Positions 12,513 through 21,103 of a DNA stretch of 64,000 nt are shown piece by piece. The position numbers were made by a program, and so were the translations under genes. Position 1 is the stretch's first letter. Each line of letters starts with the position of its first letter. Below the pieces are notes generated by a model. That model saw only the letters and a program-made list of their open reading frames with translations. It did no database searches and had not been told where the DNA came from. Origin of the DNA: Zhongshania antarctica (GTDB taxonomy: Bacteria; Pseudomonadota; Gammaproteobacteria; Pseudomonadales; Spongiibacteraceae); assembly GCF_014202945.1 (NCBI RefSeq), contig NZ_JACHHW010000008.1:1-64000 (forward strand), written 5' to 3'.

Positions 12513-12648
12513 CTTTGAACGGCCCCCTATGCCAGGTCGGCTGGCTTTGTGGTGATGGTTGTCGGTTTTGATTCCTTACCATTGGCCGCAATCTTTATTA
12601 ATCCAGTACGGGGCGCGGGGGTTGATGCCTAGGGTAGAGGTGAAAGTG

Positions 12649-12757
12649 GTGGGAACACTGGGAAACTGGGAATTCCTTTGTAACTAATTGAATATTAATG
12701 GATTAATTGTTCCCAGTGCTTTCGGTAGTTGTTCCCAGTTCCCAGTGACTGGGAACA
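12649..12757. repeat. Iteron cluster 1 (core GTTCCCAGT / ACTGGGAAC)
   Basis: At 12649-12672 three TGGGAA units run in tandem. Further copies in the opposite orientation are at about 12708-12718 and 12729-12757, the last forming a GTTCCCAGT...ACTGGGAAC palindrome. The 24-base block 12649-12672 is the exact reverse complement of 19559-19582, and 15 bases at 12729-12743 recur directly at 19471-19485. Such iterons usually bind a replication initiator or repressor. Confidence 0.8.
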
Positions 12758-12845
12758 TTTTTAGGTGACTATATTAGGCGGTGTTAAGCGTGGATGGTCG
12801 TCGTTGGTTAGCGGGTGACCTTAGTTTGGATTGCTTGCCCTTCGC

Positions 12846-13727: not shown

Positions 13728-13935
13728 CTTTGTGTTTTTAGTTAGTAGGGCTTCCGGTTAGTAGCTGGTAGCCAGGTGTCAACTGGAGCACACAAAGTAG
13801 CTCCGGGCTTATTCCCCTTGCGGGTATTGTATTACCGCCTCTCCACCCGGCTATAAAAAACCGAGATACCTTTTTACAGGCGAAAAAAAACCGCGAGGCT
13901 GTCGGATGCGGTTGGCCGCTTTGTGTTTTCCAGTG
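13728..13935 (-). ncRNA. P4 CI / C4-type antisense RNA leader (putative immunity switch)
   Basis: A minus-strand transcript from the promoter at 13942-13970 would carry three matching segments. Segment A is AAAACACAAAG (complement at 13919-13926 plus flank). Segment B is a hairpin with stem GGAGC/GCTCC at 13785-13804 and loop TACTTTGTGT. Segment C is AAAACACAAAG at 13728-13735, overlapping the ribosome-binding site of the next gene. The loop can pair eight bases perfectly with A or C. A terminator lies between A and B. The stem GCCGGG...CCCGG encloses the middle part. This A-B-C order is that of the P4 CI RNA and phage C4 antisense RNA. A 67-codon open frame across it looks non-coding. Confidence 0.7.
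13883..13913 (-). terminator. Intrinsic terminator inside the leader
   Basis: On the minus strand AACCGC and GCGGTT (six pairs, 13-base loop) are followed directly by eight T residues. It lies between complementary segments A and B of the leader, so premature termination here would silence the three downstream small genes, as in the P4 immunity mechanism. Confidence 0.75.
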
Positions 13936-13941
13936 TCTCAA

Positions 13942-13970
13942 AATTTAATCCCTCGGTAGTTGGCTGTCAA
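13942..13970 (-). promoter_or_regulatory. Sigma-70-type promoter for the leader and small-gene operon
   Basis: Minus-strand TTGACA (13965-13970), a 17-base spacer and TAAATT (13942-13947). The -35 matches the consensus fully and the -10 matches 4 of 6. The predicted start near 13935 places segment A of the antisense leader within the first 20 bases of RNA. Confidence 0.75.
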
Positions 13971-19619: not shown

Positions 19620-20840
19620 TTATTTTTTCGCTGCGGTAATGGGTATCACGTTATCTATCTCTAGGCGTAAGGTATCCAGATAATCGGCCCAGCTTTGCAT
19701 CATCTGTTGACGGCCTTCTAAATGTTTAGTTCGGTTGTAGGCTCTGCCGTTGGTGTCTCTTACTGCGTGGGCTAATTGGTGTTCTATCCAGTCAACAGAA
19801 AAGCCCAAAACCTCATCCAGTAAGGTTCGGGCCATTGCTCGGAATCCGTGGGGTGTCATTTGCTCATTGGTGTAACCCATCGTCCGTAAGGCTATGCGCA
19901 TTCCGTTGTCAGAAAGGGGGCGTGATAGTGCTCGGGCATTAGGGAACACGTAGCGGCTATTGTTAGAAACTTTATACTGTTCTTTGAGTATTGCTAAGGC
20001 TTGGTCAGCCAGTGGAATGATGTGGGGTTCTGCTAGCTTCATCTTTTCGGCGGGTATATCGATCCGCCGATCTTCAAAATTAACTTCACTCCACTCTAAT
20101 TGGCGAAGCTCCCCAGGGCGGCAGAAAAACAGGGGTGCTAATTTAATGGCAGACGACACGGCGGGGGTGGCTTGGTAGGCGTGAATAGCGGCCATTAAGC
20201 GCCCGACTTCTTTAGGTTCGGTAAGGGCTGAGTAGTGTTTTACCTTGCCTTGTTTTAATGCCCCTTTTAGATCGGCGGAAGGATCTCGTTCAGCCAGCCC
20301 AGCGGCTACGGCGAAACGGAATATTTGCCCGGCTGTTTGTTTGGCTTTCTTAGTTGTTTCGTATGCCCCTCGGGCTTCTATTTTTCTGAGTGCGTTTAAT
20401 AGTACTGGTGGGGTGATATCGCTAATGGGCTGGCTGCCAATGGAGGGGAATAAGTCTTTTTCAAGTATTCGCTTTATTCTTGCGTCCCCTGATACTGACT
20501 TAGCGCCTCGCTTATCCATCCATTCCAGAGATACCGCTTCAAAGCTATTGGCATTGGCTAGCAGCTTTGCGGCCTTTTGAGCTTTGCGGTGGTTCATTGG
20601 GTCGGTGTCTTGGGCAAGCAAGGAGCGTGCGTTGTCCCGCTCGTTTCTGGCTTGAGCTAATGAGACCTCGGGGTATACGCCAATGGAGAGAAGCTTCTCT
20701 TTTCCGCTATAGCGGTACTTCATTCGCCAGTACTTTCCGCCGGACTTTTTGACGAGTAGGAACAGGCCTTTTTCGTCGCTGAGTTTGTAGTCCTTATCCA
20801 GTGGCTTTGCTGTCTTGATCTTAGCGTCAGTGAGTGGCAT
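19620..20840 (-). CDS. int: P4-type tyrosine integrase
   Basis: At 406 residues it has the usual length for P4/Sai integrases. It has the N-terminal DUF4102 arm-binding domain (LTDAKIKTAKPLDKDYKLSDEKGL, YSGKEKLLSIGVYPEVSLAQAR), a core-binding domain, and a catalytic domain with Arg241 (CRPGELRQLEW), His331-x-x-Arg334 (HGFRAMARTLL), His358 (QLAHAV) and nucleophile Tyr368 (RAYNRTKHLEGR). It is complete and faces away from the tRNA-Leu target. The TACCCCC repeats just upstream of its start could act as arm sites and in autoregulation. It would recombine the tRNA 3'-end with the left copy at 11885. Confidence 0.95.
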   Translation of the reverse strand: MPLTDAKIKTAKPLDKDYKLSDEKGLFLLVKKSGGKYWRMKYRYSGKEKLLSIGVYPEVSLAQARNERDNARSLLAQDTDPMNHRKAQKAAKLLANANSFEAVSLEWMDKRGAKSVSGDARIKRILEKDLFPSIGSQPISDITPPVLLNALRKIEARGAYETTKKAKQTAGQIFRFAVAAGLAERDPSADLKGALKQGKVKHYSALTEPKEVGRLMAAIHAYQATPAVSSAIKLAPLFFCRPGELRQLEWSEVNFEDRRIDIPAEKMKLAEPHIIPLADQALAILKEQYKVSNNSRYVFPNARALSRPLSDNGMRIALRTMGYTNEQMTPHGFRAMARTLLDEVLGFSVDWIEHQLAHAVRDTNGRAYNRTKHLEGRQQMMQSWADYLDTLRLEIDNVIPITAAKK

Positions 20841-21016: not shown

Positions 21017-21103
21017 TGGTGCCCAGGAGAGGACTTGAACCTCCACCCCCTTGCGAGGACTAGCACCTGAAGCTAGCGTGTCTACCAATTTCACCACCTG
21101 GGC
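21017..21103 (-). tRNA. leuX-like: tRNA-Leu (anticodon CAG), also attR of the element
   Basis: The minus strand folds as a long-variable-arm tRNA. The acceptor stem is GCCCAGG/CCTGGGC, the D-loop contains GGTAGACAC, the anticodon stem is CTAGC/GCTAG with loop TTCAGGT (anticodon CAG), and the T-arm contains GTTCAAGTC. Discriminator A at 21020 is followed by an encoded CCA to 21017. The 3'-terminal 23 bases recur, imperfectly, at 11885-11906. The gene is intact, so integration restored the tRNA. It lies before rnr, a common gammaproteobacterial order. Confidence 0.93.

Follow-up and report, generated by a model that had tools for sequence, protein, structure and literature searches.

A putative C4/CI-type antisense RNA switch on the sRNA-Xcc1 scaffold in an integrase-bearing element beside tRNA-Leu

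The C4 RNA of phage P1, the CI RNA of P4 and the CA RNA of N15 are experimentally studied self-targeting antisense RNAs and are among the closest described systems to the locus considered here. P1 C4 silences the icd-ant operon (P1 record annotation), and the C4 RNA of P1 and P7 is known to be processed by RNase P from a longer transcript (cited in PMC5320573). In the nomenclature of P1 the hairpin loop of the antisense RNA is b' and its junction is a'. The P1, P4 and N15 RNAs score in the Rfam family RF01695 (C4; 69–79 bits) and not in RF02221, the family of sRNA-Xcc1; C4 shares one clan with its own target family, c4-a1b1, and RF02221 has no clan.

sRNA-Xcc1, an RNA of 88 nt when cloned from Xanthomonas campestris (PMC2996969), has been reported in Xylella vesicles (PMC12189769), beside symE in the most widespread integron cassette of Xanthomonas (PMC12444791) and in E. 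coli O157:H7 EDL933, where it is abundant and untranslated, at 89 nt with 40,293 reads and a ribosome coverage of 0.02 (PMC5331693). Our literature search, restricted to searchable papers, found no earlier link between sRNA-Xcc1 and C4 or CI.

We report the analysis of a 64,000-nucleotide stretch of DNA (the window), in which a sequence-only reading had proposed an antisense RNA switch of the P4 CI/P1 C4 type. We consider it highly probable, judging from sequence and comparison, that the window does contain a C4/CI-type self-targeting antisense switch, and that it is built on the sRNA-Xcc1 scaffold; the proposed type of mechanism is supported by the structure of the RNA, by its conservation in a relative and by the matching of loops and targets across a large family.

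The putative minus-strand switch and its element

Read from 14000 to 13700, the minus strand presents, one after the other, a promoter-like site, target 1, a terminator with a run of eight T's, a structured RNA and target 2, and then runs into the beginning of an ORF of 115 codons (Table 1). The parts named by the sequence-only reading are all present: both copies of the loop complement, a hairpin loop perfectly complementary to each of them (8 nt and 8 nt), a T8 terminator between the first copy and the hairpin, and a second copy placed on a ribosome-binding site. In shuffled flanks an exact complement of the 8-mer arises with a probability of about 0.005 per flank, and in 0 of 20,000 shuffles did both flanks have one; the 11-mer AAAACACAAAG occurs just twice in the 64-kb window (13929–13919 and 13738–13728), both times within the switch. 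The structured RNA exceeds in extent the hairpin originally described and includes a second antisense stretch, the junction (TCCAGT/AGTT), which is complementary to both targets, over 6 nt at target 1 and over only 4 nt at target 2. The consensus-like promoter is likewise where it was claimed to be, though it is weak evidence taken alone, because the consensus scan that returned this one site would be expected to return 0.9 by chance. An automated terminator scan reported none in the switch region, since the 13-nt loop of the terminator exceeds the length that the scan allows.

Table 1. Features of the switch, the genes beneath it and the surrounding element (window coordinates)
Feature	Position	Strand	Remarks
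ORF3, 81 aa	12846..13091	-	phrog_27414 (unknown function), E 1.2e-6
ORF2, 88 aa	13110..13376	-	overlaps the end of ORF1; no family match (Pfam, PHROG, NCBIfam, PADLOC)
ORF1, 115 aa	13369..13716	-	first gene under target 2; relative in L206 80% identical
Target 2	13728..13743	-	AACT 13743–13740 and ACACAAAG 13735–13728; overlaps Shine-Dalgarno of the 115-codon ORF (start 13716)
sRNA-Xcc1 (RF02221) RNA, 91 nt	13762..13852	-	59.8 bits, gathering threshold 53, E 3.1e-8; MFE z -2.75
Second antisense stretch TCCAGTTGA	13779..13787	-	mostly unpaired junction from hairpin 2 to the closing outer stem
Hairpin 2, GGAGC-TA-CTTTGTGT-GCTCC	13785..13804	-	antisense loop CTTTGTGT at 13797–13790
Terminator AACCGC...GCGGTT and T8	13883..13913	-	13-nt loop; T8 at 13890–13883; CCGC common to the antiterminator
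Predicted antiterminator hairpin GCGG-CCAA-CCGC	13908..13919	-	begins at the final base of target 1
Target 1	13919..13934	-	junction complement ACTGGA 13934–13929 and loop complement ACACAAAG 13926–13919; kept in L034
Promoter-like site TTGACA-17-TAAATT	13942..13970	-	-35 TTGACA 13970–13965, 17-nt spacer, -10 TAAATT 13947–13942
Primase/helicase-like protein, 981 aa	14094..17039	-	phrog_1139 DNA primase, E 9.7e-71; DUF927; upstream of the switch
Tyrosine integrase	19620..20840	-	Pfam Phage_integrase and Arm-DNA-bind_3
tRNA-Leu (cag)	21017..21103	-	adjoins the integrase; likely integration target

The RNA is a member of RF02221 and not of RF01695. It matches the former over its full length (positions 1–87 of 87) and above the gathering threshold, and it gives no match to the C4 model at E<=10, so that the C4 covariance check suggested by the sequence-only reading failed and pointed to another family.

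The order of the element is integrase, primase-like protein, small ORFs, and then the switch with ORF1–3. Of what would mark a P4-like satellite, namely integrase, primase and helper-dependent functions within an element of about 10 kb, the integrase and the primase are present; no helper-exploiting gene was found, and a search for an att repeat of the tRNA-Leu 3' end revealed no second copy. One viral contig (loci L034 and L206) contains a relative, with about 84% DNA identity from inside the primase gene to ORF2, which keeps the RNA (13852–13762), both targets, the terminator hairpin (AACCGC/GCGGTT) and a promoter-like site, TTGACA-17-TAACTT. In this relative a 1-nt insertion after the T-run breaks a 67-codon frame that spans the region in the window, and no 60-aa ORF is left there; translation of that frame as a conserved protein, named by the sequence-only reading as an outcome that would refute it, thus finds no support. 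sRNA-Xcc1 occurs in 5 of the 57 genomes searched, the window's own included and 4 of them above threshold, and it therefore behaves as a mobile trait and not as one of lineage. Near the end of the element, positions 12618–12845 are non-coding, contain inverted copies of CCCAGT/ACTGGG and are 80% conserved in L034; this is possibly a replication origin.

ORF1 has no Pfam, PHROG, NCBIfam or PADLOC match, and a search of 194 genomes of the order returned only the window's own copy. Family matches reveal no recognisable antirepressor among ORF1–3. The phrog_27414 match of ORF3 is the sole family match among the window genes under the switch.

Loops and targets across the sRNA-Xcc1 family

The complementarity test recovers both loop and junction targets in the P1, P4 and N15 systems, which were used as positive controls: GTTAGTG twice and TTGACAG twice in P1, matching the annotation of the P1 record, the loop target TTCACAGG twice in P4, with the second copy on AGGAGG, and both sites of N15 CA (8 and 7 nt). 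Searching for the conserved module ACAATACCCGNAAGGGGAA produced at least 120 viral stretches and 67 in genomes sampled one per species, and after removal of repeats there remained, among the matches listed, 118 distinct copies with flanks, mostly from phages or prophages. The sample is limited to one genome per species and includes related copies and binned host genomes. The fixed module is partly an artefact of the search pattern, and covariance-model searching also returned loci in which the module tip is a variant of UUCG type. Three loci that came from the covariance model and not from the pattern search (L196, L197 and L198) have both targets.

The loop of hairpin 2 is hypervariable, with 108 different loops in 117 of the copies among the matches listed, and a first, position-free scan for complementarity gave two peaks, one at this loop and one at the junction that follows it. 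Again among the matches listed, 59 of 118 copies have the complement of their loop (at least 7 nt) in both of their own flanks, against a mean of 1.44 and a maximum of 7 in 2,000 trials with randomly reassigned flanks; about half of the copies lack such a double match. Close kinship between some copies means that the 59 cannot be counted as independent, but several dozen distinct loops among the matches listed each have a pair of matching sites. Beside target 1, the complement of the junction is placed as expected in 68 of 82 copies and on the wrong side in 2, the corresponding figures for target 2 being 41 and 4 of 74. In 55 of 84 copies the downstream site begins 16–20 nt before the start codon, i.e. 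on the Shine-Dalgarno. The two halves of the outer stem pair in 109 of 118 copies (30% with swapped halves), and a terminator-like hairpin separates target 1 from the RNA in 47 of 82 (0 when shuffled). A MAFFT/RNAalifold model (R1) was set aside, as the variability of the helices left it with only 3 recovered pairs.

Loops match their own flanks and not those of other copies, and this low cross-matching, together with the diversity of the loops, is consistent with silencing in trans and with heteroimmunity, both of which are inferred. Two switches with different loops are found in a single genome or contig in a Cystobacterineae MAG (L156 and L160), in Halodesulfovibrio (L151 and L165) and at L137 and L192, and these represent natural tests of orthogonality. 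Some copies lie outside Pseudomonadota, in Bacteroidota, Chloroflexi and Spirochaete bins (L149, L172, L153, L140 and L141), where real transfer or misbinned contigs are both possible.

Antirepressor domains are frequent in 66 representative downstream proteins (Bro-N 15, P22_AR_C 9, Rha 7, KilA-N 7, AntA 5 and P22_AR_N 3, where one protein may count twice); their alignment (A1), which mixes families, served the Pfam scan alone. Downstream genes of this kind include Ant in lambdoid prophages of E. coli and a Rha-like gene in Vibrio phage VHML. The copy upstream of Ant in E. coli O157:H7 EDL933 (L230) has CAAATAAG in its leader and on the antirepressor Shine-Dalgarno, and it probably corresponds to the abundant RNA of 89 nt described in PMC5331693, where the coordinates seem to follow a different assembly version. 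A second group, to which the window belongs, has small downstream ORFs of about 70–115 codons, mostly without a known family. In Xanthomonas prunicola a high-scoring copy (L211, 1501–1851) has CTCGAAG twice, once upstream and once over the Shine-Dalgarno of a SymE_toxin gene. This makes it a candidate for a toxin module under the control of a C4-type RNA, and its layout agrees with that published for the integron cassette widespread in Xanthomonas. Further paralogues in three Xanthomonas genomes (L212–L229), at 6–7 copies per genome, have distinct loops which mostly match, and change together with, their own upstream target; no downstream target was found on the ribosome-binding sites of these paralogues.

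By sequence and comparison, then, the parts, their potential for pairing, their conservation and the family-wide matching of loop and target have been shown, and the comparison of more than 100 relatives suggests that the sRNA-Xcc1 family works like the immunity RNAs of P1 and P4.

Proposed mechanism and alternative explanations

We propose that the transcript begun at the leader promoter would be processed to an RNA of about 90 nt, the loop of which, CUUUGUGU, would pair together with the neighbouring junction to target 1 in the leader. Since target 1 ends on the base with which the GCGG arm of the antiterminator begins, such pairing would occupy that base and so favour the terminator; pairing of loop and junction with target 2, over the Shine-Dalgarno of ORF1, would block translation. 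Given enough RNA, the element's own leader and its three-gene operon would be silenced, as would those of an incoming element whose loop is identical. For the window element, in the absence of RNA data from the strain, each of these steps is an inference, from transcription and processing through termination to trans silencing and immunity.

The GCGG arm can pair with CCGC, which also forms the 5' arm of the terminator; 46 of 57 leaders have such an overlapping helix, where shuffled controls give 7.6. Target 1 is followed by CGG in 64 of 82 leaders. For the window, the predicted pairing probability of the terminator rises from 0.03 in the free leader to 0.96 when target 1 and the junction site are blocked, and from 0.01 to 0.68–0.72 in a longer leader. 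Across the family the shift is modest and mixed, from 0.26 to 0.45 when blocked against 0.28 for a control block, with a rise in 12 copies and a fall in 9; attenuation is for this reason a proposal and not a result. In the leaders of P4 and N15 the terminator folds with or without blocking and no shift is predicted. Termination in P4 involves other factors.

Although 8-mers do recur by chance in large windows, it is scarcely credible that these are chance repeats in an ordinary intergenic region, given the shuffling result, the covariance-model match, the conservation in L034 and the family statistics. A classical leader-peptide attenuator could make use of the 67-codon frame, which opens with TTG and runs from 13941 to 13738, but the insertion after T8 in L034 breaks that frame while the RNA and targets are kept, and we regard this reading as very improbable. 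The literature treats sRNA-Xcc1 as a trans-acting regulator of the host, linked to virulence regulators in Xanthomonas and with many predicted targets (PMC2996969, PMC12189769); on that reading the matches in cis would be incidental. This is very unlikely to be the explanation here: the hypervariable loops match their own flanks and not those of others, the downstream site stays on the Shine-Dalgarno while the genes behind it vary, and even in Xanthomonas the high-scoring L211 has both targets, the second of them before the SymE gene.

That same L211 arrangement, and the small ORFs of no known function in the window, lend some weight to an antitoxin-like RNA, where the mechanism would be the same and the payload different: the ORF1–3 operon would be toxic and the module would retain the element without conferring immunity. 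ORF1–3 match no toxin family, however, and where the downstream genes can be recognised, what family members control is in most cases an antirepressor, which leaves this a possibility to be kept in mind but not the one we would choose. For the window's proposed C4/CI-type switch, the analogy with P1 and P4 makes immunity the likely role, though here it is an inference; an antitoxin-like or dosage-control role also remains open.

On the wider question we lean, with some reserve, towards regarding sRNA-Xcc1 as a second, widespread class of C4-type self-targeting antisense RNAs, in which the hypervariable hairpin loop would set immunity specificity. Such a class would have many members, mutually orthogonal RNAs that repress antirepressors and other genes of prophages and satellites, and in Xanthomonas the copies beside SymE and the sets of 6–7 paralogues per genome would be portable versions of them. 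A family that keeps appearing unexplained in RNA-seq, vesicle and integron studies would thereby gain a testable function and a link to RNA-based phage immunity. A conserved scaffold with a swappable loop of 7–8 nt would make it predictable from sequence who silences whom, and loops that can be read in this way would make the heteroimmunity of prophages and satellites legible in genomes.

Comparison with sRNA-Xcc1, CA, CI and C4

The window RNA shares with sRNA-Xcc1 its fold and the conserved module of hairpin 1; it differs in that the published role of the family is virulence-linked regulation in trans or is unclear, and in its two-target layout in cis, of which we found no description in those parts of the publications that were accessible. 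The Group 1 C4-like sRNAs of Acinetobacter baumannii similarly have many paralogues with a conserved scaffold and a variable antisense loop, but they match the C4 motif, and targets in cis were not found reported in the accessible part of their description (PMC5320573). N15 CA is a small processed RNA, with two recovered target sites, and controls an antirepressor (Ravin 1999, as cited in PMC10732415), though it belongs to RF01695 and not to RF02221.

P4 CI shares the order of seqA, CI loop and seqC, the presence of the loop complement in both flanks, and its position in an element with an integrase and a primase. It differs as a member of RF01695 with an isrK-type leader, and its switch precedes the primase gene, whereas that of the window follows it. 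The C4 RNA of P1 and P7 (RF01695; a1, b1, a2, b2) resembles the window RNA in its outer stem, hairpin 1, antisense hairpin 2 and antisense junction, and also in having a target in the leader, a terminator with GCGG and CCGC, and a second target on the ribosome-binding site; the P1 leader reads target-GCGG-ACAA-CCGC...GCGG-T-run, the same layout as in the window. Hairpin 1 of C4 is a plain GC hairpin, whereas that of the window RNA is an AAUACAA.../...GGGGAAUA module. The specificity of P1 is ascribed in PMC5320573 to a', which maps to the junction, whereas the hypervariable part of the window's family is the hairpin loop, the b' of P1.
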